Part shown: piece after piece, positions 16,101 through 22,383 of the stretch
Position numbering within the stretch: the stretch's first letter is position 1
Layout of the letters: the number at the start of each line of letters is the position of its first letter
Assembly (NCBI GenBank): GCA_944388135.1
Contig: CALXHP010000011.1
Coordinates: forward strand, 1-45,082
Direction of reading: 5' to 3'
DNA from: an uncultured Gemmiger sp.
GTDB lineage: Bacteria; Bacillota; Clostridia; Oscillospirales; Ruminococcaceae
Length of the DNA stretch: 45,082 bases
Translations under genes and position numbers: made by a program
The notes under the pieces: model-generated
Database searches by the model: none
The model's input: the letters and a program-made list of their open reading frames with translations, nothing else
What the model was told of the DNA's origin: nothing

Positions 16101-16507
16101 TCAGGATTTGTGGTTGGTAGCGCGCAGACGGGCCATGGCGCGGGCCAGAGCCGCCTTGCTGCTGTAGTATTCCCGCTGGCTGCCGTGCTGGCGCAGACGC
16201 TCCTCGGCGCGTTCCTTGGCGCGCTCGGCGCGGGCAGCGTCGATCTCCTCCGGCTTTTCCGCCGTGGAGACCAGCACCACGGCATACTCCGAGGTGATCT
16301 CGGCAAAGCCCTGGGTCACAACCACGCTGTGCCAGACGCCATCCGCCTTGAAGCGGGCCTCGCCCGGTTCCACGGCGGTGACCACCGGCTCATGACCGGG
16401 CAGCACACCGTACTCGCCGTCCAGGGCGGGCAGCACCAGGCTTTCCACCGGGCCGGTGTAAAACTGCCGTTCCGGCGTGATGATCTCCAGCTGAAAGGTC
16501 TTTTCCA

Positions 16508-16508
<1 letters not shown>
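16101..16508 (-). CDS. atpC: ATP synthase F1 subunit epsilon
   Basis: Central-stalk subunit, 135 residues: an N-terminal beta-sandwich (about 1-85; FQLEIITPERQFYTGPVESL, then GEYGVLPGHEPVVTAVEPG) and a C-terminal helical hairpin (about 88-132, rich in Arg/Ala/Glu) that in the family can extend to inhibit ATP hydrolysis. The start overlaps the atpD stop codon by one base (TGATG). Last gene of the atp operon, with the shared terminator 5 bases beyond its stop codon. Confidence 0.96.
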
Positions 16509-17950
<1,442 letters not shown>

Positions 17951-18874
17951 TTACAGGTCGGCTTCTTCGTCGTCCCAGTCATCGTCCTCCCAGTCGTCGC
18001 TGCCGGGCTGTGCGCCGCCCACGATCTCGGTGATCTCCTGGGTGATGGCGGACTGACGGGCCCGGTTGTAATGCAGCGACAGCTCCTTCAAGAGGGAGCG
18101 GGCGTTGTCGGTGGCGGTGTCCATGGCGTTCATACGGGCGTTCTGCTCAGAGCAGAAGGACTCCACCAGGGTGCCGAAGAGCAGCCCTTTCAGGTAGGAC
18201 GGGACAATATGGTTGAGCACGTGCTCCGGGGACGGCACATAGGTCACCACGTGCCGTTCGCTGCCGTCGGCGCTGCGGCGCGGCTTCCAGGGGAAGGCGT
18301 CCCGGTCCAGGGGCAGCAGTTTGACCATCTTGGGTTCCATCTGCATGGGGGTGACCATCTCGGTGTAGACCACGTACACTTCATCCAAGTGTCCCTTGCG
18401 GAACAGCTCGATGAAGGTATCGCCGATTTCCCGGGCACGGTAGACCGTGGGGTCCTGGGCGGTGTACATGAACTCGCCGTCGATGTTGACGCCCTTGTGC
18501 TGGAAGTAGTTGCGGCCGGACTGGCCGATCAAAAACAGCGTGGGGTTTTCCACCTTGGCCATTTCCTCTTCCACCAGGCGCAGGACATTGTGGTTGTAGG
18601 CACCGGCCAGACCTTTATCGCCGGTGATGACGATGTAGCCCACCTTGTGGGGGCGGCCGGGGCGGGTGTCGAAATAGACATGGTCCACGCCCTGGGTGCG
18701 GTGCAGAATATCCGAAATGGTCCGGGTGATCTTCTCGAAGTAGGGCTGCACGTCGGTCAGCTGACGGCGTGCCTTGCGCAGCTTGGAGGAGGAGATCAGG
18801 TACATGGCGTTGGTGATTTTCAGGGTCTGCTGCACGCTGTCAATATGGGTGCGGATCTCCTTTATGCTTTCCAT
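17951..18874 (-). CDS. atpG: ATP synthase F1 subunit gamma with acidic C-terminal tail
   Basis: Rotor shaft subunit, 307 residues. The N-terminal helix [21 protein letters not shown] and the C-terminal helix with [14 protein letters not shown] are the usual coiled-coil shaft. Most gamma subunits stop a few residues after the EIV motif; here about 18 further residues follow, almost all Asp, Glu and Trp ([16 protein letters not shown]). In known F1 structures the gamma C-terminus lies near the top of the alpha3beta3 ring, close to the delta subunit. The start overlaps the end of the delta-alpha gene by 13 bases, after AGGTGA. The tail is discussed as a finding. Confidence 0.96.
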
Positions 18875-20901
18875 GTGGCGCTCACCTGCTCTTTGTAGCT
18901 CTGCAGCGTGGTGCGGATCTGCTCGGTAGCGGCGCCGGACAAAGCGCCGGTCTCATTGATCTCCTGCATCAGGTCAGCCTGTTCCCGTTCCATCAGGTCG
19001 GCAAAATCCTGGGCAAAACCGGCGGACTTTTCTACCGGCACGTCGGACAGCAGGCCGTTGGTGGCGATGTACAGGATGACCGCCTGACGGGCTACCGTCA
19101 TGGGGGTGCACAGGGGCTGACGAAGCAGGGCCATCATCCGCTTGCCGTGGTCCAGCGCCTGCCGGGTCTCGGCATCCAGGTCGGAGCTGAACTGGGTAAA
19201 GACTTCCAGTTCGCGGTAGCGGGCCAGGTCGATACGCAGGGTACCGGCGGTCTTTTTGATGGCGCGGGTCTGGGCAGCGCCGCCTACACGGGACACCGAC
19301 AGACCCACGTTGACAGCGGGACGCTGACCGGAGAAGAAGAGGCCGCTTTCCAGATAGATCTGGCCGTCGGTGATGGAAATGACGTTGGTGGGGATATAGG
19401 CCGAAACGTCGCCGGCCTGGGTCTCGACGATGGGCAGGGCCGTCATGGAACCGCCGCCGTATTCCTTGGTCAGGCGGCAGGCGCGTTCCAGCAGACGGGA
19501 ATGCAGATAGAAGACGTCGCCGGGGTAAGCTTCACGGCCGGGGGACCGGCGGAGCAGCAAAGACAGGGTACGGTAGGCCACTGCATGCTTGGACAGGTCA
19601 TCGTAGACGATGAGGACGTCCTTGCCCTTGGACATGAAGTATTCGCCCATGGCAGCACCCGCATAGGGGGCGATGTACTGCATGGAAGCACCCTCGGCAG
19701 CGGGGGCGGAGACGATGATGGTGTAGTCCATGGCACCGTGCTTCTTCAGGGTCTCCCGCAGGCGGGCGACGGTGGAAGCCTTCTGGCCGATGGCCACATA
19801 GATGCAGATCATATCCTGGCCCTTCTGGTTCAGGATGGCATCGGTGGCGATGGAGGTCTTGCCGGTCTGACGGTCGCCGATGATCAACTCACGCTGGCCG
19901 CGGCCGATGGGCACCATGGCGTCGATGGCCAGGATGCCGGTCTGCATGGGCTGGGTGACGGGTTCACGGCTGACAACACCGGGGGCCTCATGTTCGATGG
20001 GGCGGGTCTCGGTGGTGTCGATGGGGCCCAGACCGTCGATGGGACGGCCCAGGGCATTGACGGTACGGCCGATGAGAGCTTCGCCTACCGGCACGTCGGC
20101 GGGACGGCCGGTGCGGCGCACCAGGCTGCCCTCGGTCAGGCCCTCGGCGCTGCCCAGCAGCACCACACCGGTGCGCTTGCGGCGCAGGTCCAGAATCAGG
20201 CCGGCGGTGCCGTTTTCAAACTCCACACGCTCGCCGTAGACGGCGTGGCGCAGGCCGCTGACGTTGGCAATGCCGTCGCCGATCTCCAGCACGCGGCCGG
20301 TCTCGGTGGCCATGGTATCCCCGGCGGAACCGGAGAGGGCTTCCTTCATCTGGGCGGCCAGTTTGTCCAGGGTGTCGTCGGCAGGAGCATTCTCCATGCC
20401 CCGGGCCAGACGGTCCAGACGACCCTTGACGCTGCGGTCGTAGGTGACGCCGTCGATGTCCAGCACAAAACCGCCCAGCAGGCTGGGATCGATCTTGATC
20501 TGGAGCACCACATTGTCGGCGCCCCGCAGTTTGCAGGCCGCCTTGCGGACGGCCTCCTGGGTGGCCTGGTCCGGCTGGCGGGCGCAGGTCATCACACATT
20601 CCATACCGCCCTGGGCGTTCAGCGCCAGGCGGGAAAATTCGGGCAGGATCTCAGGCAGCGCGTCCAGGTGACCTTCCGCCAGCAGCAGCTGCAGGAAGGC
20701 TTTCAGGGCGTCCTGTCCGTCCAGCTGCGGCGCACCGGCCAGCAGCTCTTTCTTCTCGGCGTCGGTGGTGGCAGCACTCACCAGCACATTCCAGCGCGGG
20801 GTGTCGGCCATCAGGGCATCGGCGGCAGCGCGCACGGCCCCCGCGTCGCCCTGGGCAGCCCCGAACAGGGCCGCAGCGTAACGCTCGGTCGCTTCGCTCA
20901 T
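18862..20901 (-). CDS. atpHA: fused ATP synthase F1 subunits delta and alpha
   Basis: One uninterrupted frame of 679 residues. Residues 1 to about 168 are a complete OSCP/delta subunit, ending with the family's terminal pattern [13 protein letters not shown]. From about 174 on it is a full alpha subunit: an N-terminal helix ([16 protein letters not shown]), [11 protein letters not shown] at 207-217, P-loop GDRQTGKT at 342-349, [12 protein letters not shown] and the arginine-finger region [11 protein letters not shown]. By alignment with E. coli AtpA the alpha part starts at its normal first residues, so there is almost no linker. The only internal ATGs are M169, M185 and M197; none has a good ribosome site (M197 has GGGGA nearby). 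The gene starts by ATGA overlap with atpF. Delta holds the peripheral stalk to the top of F1; alpha is the non-catalytic nucleotide-binding subunit. A separate atpH or atpA is not in the operon. Confidence 0.93.
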
Positions 20902-21386
20902 GCCTGCTCACCCACCTTTGCCAGAAATTCCTCGGCCAGGGCACGGTCGGAGTCGGTATCCAGCCGCTTGCCAGCCACCTCGGTGGCGGCCATCACGGCC
21001 AGATGGGCCACCTCACCGCGGGCAGAACGCAGCATCTCGCTGCGCTCGGCAGCAATGCGGGCCTCGGCTTCCGCCGCCGTCTGCTTGGCGTCGGCTTCGG
21101 CCTGCGCCAGACGATCGGCGTAGGCCACATCGGCGCGGCGCTTGGCGTCGGCCACCAGTTCGGCGGCTTCCTGCCGGGCACCGGCCAGTTTGCTCTCGTA
21201 TTCCTGCTTGCTCTTCTGGGCCTCGGCGTTGTTCTTCTCGGCCTCTTCCACCTGGCTGCGGATCAGCTGTTCACGCTGCTCCAGCACGGCATTGATGCGC
21301 CCAAACAGGAATTTGCGGAAAAAGAAATACAGAATCAAAAGGTTGACGATGGTAAAAAAGATCGTCCACGGCTGGAAATCCAGCAT
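20898..21386 (-). CDS. atpF: ATP synthase Fo subunit b
   Basis: Peripheral-stalk subunit, 162 residues: one N-terminal membrane helix (about 8-27, [19 protein letters not shown]) followed by a long charged Ala/Glu/Lys/Arg helix (about 30-150) that dimerises and reaches the delta domain at the top of F1. AAAGGAGG lies before the ATG. Its stop codon overlaps the start of the delta-alpha gene (ATGA), so translation of the two stalk partners is coupled. Length and composition are normal. Confidence 0.95.
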
Positions 21387-21402
21387 TTGGGCACACCTCC
21401 TT

Positions 21403-21621
21403 TTAACCCACGAAGATGATGATCAGCGCGGTGATGAAACCGAAGATGGCAGTACCTTCTGCCATGGCGCAGCCCAGCAGCAGGGTGCTGTTGATCTTGC
21501 CGGAAGCTTCAGGCTGACGGGCGATGGCGTCGCTGGCGTGGCCGGTGGCGATGCCGATACCGATACCGGCACCAAAACCGGTGAGAACTGCGAGACCTGC
21601 GGCGATGATTCCGATAGACAT
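21403..21621 (-). CDS. atpE: ATP synthase Fo subunit c
   Basis: Ring-forming proteolipid of 72 residues: two hydrophobic helices joined by the polar loop ARQPEASGK (34-42). The ion-binding carboxylate is E55 in CAMAEGTAIFGF. At the positions that bind sodium in Ilyobacter (Gln32, Ser66, Tyr70) this protein has Ile22, Gly56 and Phe60, so a proton-driven ring is inferred. AGGAGG precedes the ATG. A GC-rich hairpin lies between atpB and this gene. Confidence 0.96.
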   Translation of the reverse strand: MSIGIIAAGLAVLTGFGAGIGIGIATGHASDAIARQPEASGKINSTLLLGCAMAEGTAIFGFITALIIIFVG

Positions 21622-21654
21622 AGTAGTTTCCTCCTGAAAGTTCTTTTCATGGGA

Positions 21655-21673
21655 GCGCGGCAGGGCGCCGCGC
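21655..21673 (-). other. hairpin between atpB and atpE
   Basis: GCGCGGC (21655-21661) pairs with GCCGCGC (21667-21673). There is no T-run, so it is not a terminator. A processing or stability element that raises the yield of the multi-copy c subunit is possible but unproven. Confidence 0.4.
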
Positions 21674-21687
21674 GGGTGGGGCGGGGC

Positions 21688-22383
21688 TTACTCTTCTTCC
21701 TTGATGCCCTCGCCTGCGAACAGAGCGGTCAAAAACACAAAGACAATGGTCTGGATGAGGCCGTCGAACAGATCAAAGTAGATGCAGAAGACGGCAGGTA
21801 CCACAGCGGGCACCAGGTACTTGATGATCTCCATGATGATGAAAGCGCCCAAAACGTTACCGAACAGTCGCATACAAAGCGCCAGCGGACGAATGGCGAT
21901 CTCCATCAGGTTGATGGGGACCAGGACCGGCATGGGTTCGGCGAACCGCTTCATGCCGCCGCGCAGACCGTTGTACCGGAACTGCGCACCGTAGATCAGC
22001 ACCAGGCTCATGAACGCCAGGGCGGCGGTCACGCTGACGTCCTTGGTGGGGGGCGTCAGGCCGAAGATGCTGATGATGTTTGCCACGCCGATGTACAGTG
22101 CCACACTGCCCAGATAGGGGGCAAAGGGGCGCCAATGGGGACCGATGGTGTCCTTGACGAATCCGTTGAGGAACTCCACCGCGGATTCCAGCACGACCTG
22201 CAGCTTGCCGGGATTGCTCACCTTGAGGTTGCGGGTCGCCAGCAGCGTGAAGATGATCCAGAACGCCATAATGATCCAGGTCACCAGCACAGCCGAGCTG
22301 ATGGGGATACCGCCCAGTACCGGGATGGTAAAGGCAGTCTCATTGGCCAGGGCATCGACCAGGGCTTCTTTGAAACCTTCCAA
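21688..22383 (-). CDS. atpB: ATP synthase Fo subunit a
   Basis: Stator channel subunit of the membrane motor, 231 residues, with five to six membrane helices. The essential arginine is R172 in LCMRLFGNVLGAF, and the C-terminal helix pair follows. The frame begins with TTG at 22383 (GAGGTG seven bases before); the next in-frame Met would remove the N-terminal region, so TTG is the probable start. First gene of the atp operon; no atpI gene precedes it, and no convincing promoter can be named in the A/T-rich stretch at 22440-22470. Confidence 0.94.
   Translation of the reverse strand: MEGFKEALVDALANETAFTIPVLGGIPISSAVLVTWIIMAFWIIFTLLATRNLKVSNPGKLQVVLESAVEFLNGFVKDTIGPHWRPFAPYLGSVALYIGVANIISIFGLTPPTKDVSVTAALAFMSLVLIYGAQFRYNGLRGGMKRFAEPMPVLVPINLMEIAIRPLALCMRLFGNVLGAFIIMEIIKYLVPAVVPAVFCIYFDLFDGLIQTIVFVFLTALFAGEGIKEEE

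Follow-up and report, generated by a model that had tools for sequence, protein, structure and literature searches.

The stretch of DNA analyzed here (hereafter the window) comprises 45,082 nucleotides from an uncultured representative of the gut bacterium Gemmiger (GenBank assembly GCA_944388135.1, contig CALXHP010000011.1, positions 1 to 45,082) and carries on its minus strand an F-type ATP synthase (F-ATPase) operon, in which the delta and alpha subunits are encoded by a single gene, atpHA. This gene is one intact stop-free open reading frame (ORF) at 18862–20901 with an ATG start, encoding 679 amino acids (aa) followed by a stop codon; its closest named loci belong to uncultured Gemmiger (96%) and Candidatus Gemmiger excrementigallinarum (96%). 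A Pfam scan of the product returned, all above cut-off, the delta domain OSCP (residues 6–167) and the barrel (200–265), nucleotide (322–537) and C-terminal (544–668) domains of alpha. The alignment to the OSCP profile (PF00213) extends over positions 3–170 out of 172, indicative of a full domain. The alpha equivalog model TIGR00962 matches residues 180–673 with 750.8 bits (cut-off 484.45), and the score of the alternate F1F0 alpha model TIGR03324 (609.8) is below its cut-off of 750.5. The latter result, together with the presence of delta, distinguishes this system from the N-ATPase, whose operon contains no delta. A complete delta running into a complete alpha without an intervening stop codon had been proposed in an initial annotation of the window, and both the ORF reading and the Pfam scan bear this out.

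The surrounding operon (16101–22383, minus strand) is complete, with eight subunits in seven genes arranged in the order a-c-b-[delta-alpha]-gamma-beta-epsilon. Besides atpHA, the ORFs and Pfam matches identify atpB (subunit a, 231 aa; 21688–22383), atpE (subunit c, 72 aa; 21403–21621), atpF (subunit b, 162 aa; 20898–21386, overlapping the atpHA start by 4 nt), atpG (gamma, 307 aa; 17951–18874, overlapping the atpHA end by 13 nt), atpD (beta, 465 aa; 16508–17905) and atpC (epsilon, 135 aa, with both epsilon domains present; 16101–16508). The genes for b and a are single and of ordinary length. All catalytic motifs searched for in alpha (GDRQTGKT at residue 342 and SVSRVGG at 535) and in beta are present; we take GDRQTGKT to be the Walker A motif, and the roles of the other alpha and beta motifs, including SVSRVGG, are likewise presumed.

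The AlphaFold model allows a provisional division of the fused chain. The delta N-terminal domain (N-domain; residues 1–100, 20602–20901) is predicted to form six helices (3–16, 20–32, 34–41, 47–55, 64–75 and 79–96). It is followed by the delta C-terminal domain (C-domain; residues 101–170, 20392–20601), which binds b in known enzymes and is modeled over residues 99–170 as strand-helix-strand-strand-strand-helix, the last delta helix spanning 158–170. A linker of about seven residues (171–177, 20371–20391), variable in length and sequence, leads to a first alpha helix at 178–191 (20329–20370) and to the alpha body (199–679, 18865–20307), where the barrel begins. Block confidence is 75–89 across residues 1–160, and the models used here, all of single chains, have a mean predicted local distance difference test score of 72.3 and 71.2, with low quality in some stretches of the nucleotide and C-terminal domains of alpha; they inform on the chain and not on the complex. 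The boundaries proposed initially agree with this layout within a few residues.

Recurrence of the fusion in Gemmiger and beyond

With 82 contigs and a completeness of 83%, the window genome is fragmented, which could by itself suggest that the fused frame arose in assembly or sequencing, or that the operon is decaying. Either reading is refuted by the recurrence of the fused frame, which is full length and stop-free in 15 of the 35 Gemmiger genomes (own included), while a 16th carrier, G001, holds residues 1–217 in an open frame ending at the contig end. Since the full-length frame recurs across genomes of the same genus, an assembly slip is excluded. In two of the carriers, G004 and G026, the genome is a single contig, and another carrier (L068) is the strain genome of Gemmiger gallinarum DSM 109015. 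Among the matches listed, no split version of the fused operon was found in any of the 35 genomes (many of them incomplete), and the alphas of the remaining 19 are at most 63% identical to that of the window, so that these genomes seem to be without the fused operon. The 18 distinct Gemmiger fusion proteins that we compared are 679–681 aa long, and all their regions are under purifying selection: the median ratio of nonsynonymous to synonymous substitution rates (dN/dS) is 0.36 for the delta N-domain, 0.26 for the C-domain, 0.69 for the junction and 0.18 for alpha (149 of the 153 pairs, selected for an alpha dS of 0.15–1.3). Such selection over the frame, the complete set of eight subunits and the presence of the catalytic motifs also speak against decay. 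Taken together, we regard the fusion as virtually certain and the chance of an artefact or a decaying operon as negligible.

To follow the fusion beyond the genus, we searched the order (394 genomes) and the class (391 genomes) with a 15-row profile of the delta-C-domain/alpha junction. A genome was counted as fused if, among the matches listed, both domains fell in one stop-free frame confirmed at the sequence level; the counts are therefore lower bounds, and they leave aside G052, G278 and G094 (stops in the spanning match) along with other rows containing internal stops. Fusions were found in at least 70 of the 394 genomes of the order. This survey revealed three fused designs in Clostridia: the full delta-alpha chain, as in the window (7 genomes of the order), a delta-C-domain-alpha chain devoid of the N-domain (46), and a triple b-delta-C-domain-alpha chain accompanied by a separate second b (17, one of which, G416, also holds a delta-C-domain-alpha fusion). 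Outside the order, the class sample contains at least 33 fused genomes (8 with the full-length fusion, 20 lacking the N-domain and 5 recognized by frame length alone). The ORFs labelled in this way comprise 59 full-length (40 distinct), 74 N-domain-less (71 distinct) and 25 triple (17 distinct) fusions. The first two labels reflect the length preceding the delta C-domain, with a cut at 60 residues; by this rule L193 is labelled full length while being in reality N-domain-less with a repeated N-terminus, and L120 and L122, labelled N-domain-less, keep 30–45 extra residues. The N-terminus of L193 (G530) consists of a 21-residue unit (MNEMSDNEFRSRVASATNGVA-like) present about three times.

The triple fusions (L201–L209; e.g. 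L204:4770–6980, minus strand, and L201:5479–7710, plus strand) are 735–767 aa long. Their N-terminal part is a transmembrane helix and coil of the b type, followed by OSCP profile positions ~96–172 only and then by alpha. The Pfam family ATP-synt_B scores above cut-off in four of the five triple fusions scanned, a separate b-type gene lies directly upstream in all nine operons examined (eight by BLAST, L206 by Pfam), and the triple fusions form one clade (support 100). We know of no description of such a chain. Apart from delta-alpha, the open-access library searched yielded one kind of described fusion, the b-delta fusion of mycobacteria and Gordonia (PMC5709465). It resembles the window in that delta is linked covalently to an adjacent subunit of the stator, and these enzymes also have a second, separate b. 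However, their delta is joined to b rather than to alpha, that is, to a stalk subunit and not to one present in three copies, whereas b of the window is a separate 162-aa gene. The triple fusions thus combine the b-delta and the delta-alpha ideas.

A delta-alpha fusion has also been engineered. In the Bacillus PS3 enzyme, Ueno et al. (2025; PMC12229609) removed the delta N-domain (residues 2–104) and fused the C-domain to alpha. The resulting FoF1 forms as many as three stalks with up to three a subunits, reaches an H+/ATP ratio of 5.8 and makes ATP at about half the threshold force. The same source notes natural N-domain-less fusions in Acidaminococcus fermentans and in UniProt entries G4Q3K6 and A0A1I2C5T3; by their published description, these share with the window a natural delta-alpha fusion located in an F-ATPase operon and lack the N-domain that is present here. 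The N-domain-less class is therefore of a kind already in print. For full-length delta-alpha fusions and triple fusions no published report was found in the one open-access library searched, the search having been barely aimed at b-delta-alpha chains. The initial view that no delta-alpha fusion had been described is thus superseded for the N-domain-less form, both engineered and natural, and retained, within the library searched, for the full-length form. Among the best 60 of the 232 matching Protein Data Bank (PDB) sequences, one chain, 9jc1_I, is labelled as a delta-alpha fusion; it belongs to the engineered PS3 enzyme. In Foldseek, chains I, J and K of 9jc1 were the top three hits by E-value for the predicted models of both the window protein and a triple fusion; the TM-scores (0.44–0.62) are low and the root-mean-square deviations (18–20 Å) high because domain placement is loose in single-chain models. 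In both the engineered enzyme and the window protein, a short linker connects the delta C-domain to the N-terminus of alpha, and the former contains three fused copies per F1. On the other hand, its delta N-domain is deleted and its epsilon is devoid of the C-domain, whereas the window operon encodes full delta and both epsilon domains. A multi-stalk system of this kind would be expected to come without free alpha or delta genes; the window genome has a second operon with both (see below).

Origin of the fusion

The nearest unfused relatives of the window operon are found in Flavonifractor, Pseudoflavonifractor, Agathobaculum, Butyricicoccus, Fournierella and others (alpha 74–78% identical for the named genera). 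In these relatives delta ends a few bases ahead of the alpha start or overlaps it, and the reading frames of the two genes differ in 33 of the 34 relatives compared. In Flavonifractor, Agathobaculum, Butyricicoccus and Fournierella the gene order around the join is the same as in the window, but atpH and atpA are separate, a stop codon and a purine-rich site of the ribosome-binding type lying at the join. The refuting condition named in the initial annotation, separate genes in all closely related genomes, thus holds for the neighbouring genera and was not observed within Gemmiger. Three genomes deposited as Gemmiger sp. An87, An50 and An194 (L109, L110 and L116) have separate delta and alpha genes with alpha ~75% identical to that of the window; by both features, they may belong to another genus than the window.

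The alpha tree of 62 rows places the Gemmiger clade (100/100) within a 13-row clade (98/97) alongside seven unfused sequences, its neighbours with separate genes being Agathobaculum, Butyricicoccus and Fournierella. The 24-row subfamily to which this clade belongs also holds fused Oscillospiraceae, both full length (L076, L112 and L144) and without the N-domain (L084 and L107). A single origin of all fusions was rejected: placing the 37 fused rows of this tree in one clade lowered the log-likelihood by 666 and gave a p value of 5e-81 in the approximately unbiased (AU) test. One shared fusion for Gemmiger and the fused Oscillospiraceae (11 rows) is not rejected (p-AU 0.068), and for this reason we do not claim an independent fusion in the two; the groups for these topology tests were named after inspection of the tree. 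A count of fewest changes gave 10 on both the 145-row and the 62-row tree, a figure that does not separate fusion from re-splitting or transfer.

As for the relationship between the designs, full-length and N-domain-less fusions adjoin in four places of the tree, three of them well supported: L117/L119 with L120/L122 (99 and 100/99), L149–L151 with L230 and, in one tree, L234 (96 and 100/95), and L173/L180 with L174, L191 and kin (95 and 98/86); the pairing of full-length L144 with L084/L107 is weak (89 and 95/63). The full-length fusion appears to have come first and the loss of the N-domain later. In the supported Ruminococcus-like clade, the number of residues ahead of the delta C-domain falls from 99 (L117) and 98 (L119) to 45 (L120) and 30 (L122), a series possibly reflecting stepwise loss of the N-domain after fusion.

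One chain or a supply of free subunits

In the unfused relatives the alpha N-terminus is nearly invariant (EEIxSILREEIxxYD), and the SIL(R/K/Q)(E/Q)EI-type docking pattern occurs in 34 of 34 of them versus 0 of the 18 Gemmiger fusions. By alignment, the corresponding stretch of the fusions (the first alpha helix described above) has kept its place and length but lost the pattern. In known enzymes this alpha N-terminal region docks on delta (PMC12229609). Another feature of the unfused relatives, the purine-rich site at the join (e.g. AGAGAGGTGA, AAAGGGGTGA or AGAGAGGCGA), is gone in Gemmiger, where the frame reads through.

Both losses bear on the possibility of a mixed pool, in which internal initiation or proteolysis at the junction would yield free alpha and F1 would be assembled from one delta-alpha chain and two alphas, being otherwise canonical. 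M169, M185 and M197, named initially as candidate internal starts, are all found in the window protein. Across the 18 distinct Gemmiger fusions, Met occupies position 185 in as many as 16 but positions 169 and 197 in 9 and 11, respectively, so that none of the three is kept in all 18. The junction is the least constrained region of the chain by dN/dS, as expected of a cleavable linker. We scored as a plausible Shine-Dalgarno site an anti-Shine-Dalgarno energy of −6 or below at any in-frame junction start. Such a site was detected in 3 of 39 full-length fusions (a set with many close relatives and a partial copy of the window's own protein) compared with 72 of 94 separate alpha starts. At the same threshold the own starts of the full-length fusions score in 36 of 39 cases and windows inside alpha in 0.34 of 635, the junction signal being thus under background. 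At the sequence level, the full-length class to which the window belongs has no sign of internal initiation, and an internal start at the junction was rejected for this class on Met conservation and on the energies with their controls; the three candidate starts are accordingly disfavoured. In the N-domain-less class a Shine-Dalgarno-like junction start is present in 36 of 71 fusions, above the 0.34 background, which leaves free alpha less clearly excluded there. In the triple fusions the signal is found in 2 of 17, but this is a weak test, as their own starts themselves score poorly (~0.47 of 17 at the threshold). Free alphas would also require the docking helix, which is rewritten in the Gemmiger fusions, and lack the purine-rich site that precedes alpha in the relatives. 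A mixed pool is in our view improbable.

Free subunits could also come from elsewhere in the genome. A hidden Markov model search of the window genome located OSCP inside a 681-aa open frame at the window locus and another, separate OSCP on contig C58, where a second F-ATPase operon (L001) encodes a separate 178-aa delta and an alpha. A separate second alpha is present in seven of the eight Gemmiger genomes checked (own and six of seven others), which would agree with free alpha or delta of a second operon co-assembling with the fusion. However, the two alphas of the window genome are just ~59% identical, and many fused genomes have no second alpha. We counted alphas (E ≤ 1e-90) in 80 fused genomes, namely 7 full-length, 46 N-domain-less and 16 of the 17 triple-fusion genomes of the order, 7 further Gemmiger and 4 of the 8 full-length genomes of the class. 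The fusion is the only alpha in 60 of them (9 of 18 full-length, 38 of 46 N-domain-less and 13 of 16 triple), including, for the full-length design, Gemmiger G020 (95% complete) and the single-contig G366; the other 20 have two alphas, both fused in G416. Co-assembly is thus highly improbable, and we consider it very probable that atpHA is used as one chain.

Stalk number in fused ATP synthases

The initial annotation pointed out that a true fusion would put three delta domains on each F1, and the data support both the fusion and this stoichiometric puzzle. As the sole alpha of its F-ATPase, the product of atpHA, if made as a single chain, would enter F1 three times, as follows from the alpha3beta3 composition. 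The covalent link would then take over from the delta N-domain and the alpha N-terminal helix the task of keeping the delta C-domain atop F1; we infer this from the rewritten helix, the relatively faster change of the N-domain and its apparent repeated loss in relatives. By analogy with the engineered delta-C-domain-alpha enzyme, each chain could present a b-binding C-domain at its own alpha, allowing for one, two or three b2 stalks, each with a subunit a. The retained delta N-domains would be a partly redundant remainder, with at most one filling the central dimple. This explanation (a one-chain delta-alpha, a link replacing docking, and one to three stalks) is the best overall and, to our judgement, reasonably probable while far from assured.

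The divergence of the two delta domains is consistent with it. The N-domain/C-domain divergence ratio is 1.80 (1.60–2.13) in the 18 fusions versus 1.08 (1.01–1.15) in the 34 unfused relatives, and 1.79 versus 1.07 on pairs with similar alpha distance. Relative to alpha, the C-domain distance is 1.72 in the fusions versus 3.62 in the unfused relatives, and that of the N-domain 3.09 versus 3.91. As judged from these sequence comparisons, the C-domain has become much more constrained relative to alpha after fusion, and the N-domain has changed less, a pattern expected if docking gave way to covalent attachment and each copy's C-domain is important.

A more conservative possibility is that three fused chains per F1 support one stalk: one N-domain would sit on the axis, its C-domain would bind b2, and the other two deltas would idle. 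The retention of the N-domain under purifying selection and the single b and a genes of ordinary length fit this arrangement, as does the statement of Ueno et al. that the delta N-domain breaks symmetry and restricts the number of stalks to one (PMC12229609). Yet two useless 170-residue domains should be trimmed or decay, while the C-domain has in fact tightened; the fused relatives seen have lost the N-domain and not the C-domain; and the triple fusions tie one b to every alpha. We consider a one-stalk enzyme rather unlikely.

The explanation that allows up to three stalks has several points weighing against it. The junction signal of the N-domain-less fusions, the weak test in the triple fusions and the second operon with its separate delta and alpha were described above. 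Furthermore, the N-domain is kept in the window protein, with a median dN/dS (0.36) that compares with 0.18 for alpha, and according to Ueno et al. such a domain limits the stalks to one. Even the engineered enzyme displayed few extra stalks on cryo-EM grids, molecules with 0, 1, 2 and 3 stalks accounting for 15, 51, 26 and 8% (PMC12229609). Finally, no protein-level, stoichiometry or structural data on any natural fusion were found. The sequence evidence on the stalk number points both ways, the kept N-domain favouring one stalk and the tightened C-domain with the apparent later loss of the N-domain favouring more. That a substantial fraction of the Gemmiger enzyme molecules have more than one stalk is a serious possibility that we stop short of calling probable, and the likelihood is higher for the triple fusions, where three stalks would be hard to avoid.

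The plan of the F-type ATP synthase, with one stalk and one subunit a, is treated as fixed, and its ion/ATP ratio as set by the size of the c-ring. A bolder reading of the natural fusions, which we consider somewhat less likely than not, is that Clostridia have repeatedly evolved multi-stalk ATP synthases: fusion would come first, with the N-domain kept, as in Gemmiger; loss of the N-domain would free three sites; and a welded b with a separate b as partner would hard-wire three stalks, each able to hold a subunit a. If true, more ions would be spent per ATP, and fermenters could make ATP at very low proton-motive force. Ueno et al. have shown that a delta-alpha fusion can break the one-stalk plan and suggested that nature may do likewise (PMC12229609). 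The frequency of natural fusions within one order, often as the sole alpha, their three architectures, the availability of a DSM-numbered strain and the existence of the triple fusion make the question of stalk number directly testable.

Several fused operons and the second operon of the window genome differ in their c subunits. The c of the second operon has the pattern GPAIGEGN...TESTGIY, presumably a sodium-site pattern, and that of the fused operon (21403–21621, minus strand) has GAGIGIGI...AEGTAIFG; since the two motifs differ, one sodium and one proton ATPase may coexist in this genome. The c gene of another fused operon (L117:3956–4393, plus strand) encodes a tandemly doubled c of 145 aa with two similar hairpins, and in L216 (G237) two tandem c genes of 73 aa each are located beside a full-length delta-alpha fusion. 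In the N-domain-less operons L210, L211, L213 and L220, the c ORFs are 120–125 aa long (~50 extra N-terminal residues) and the a ORFs 269–315 aa.

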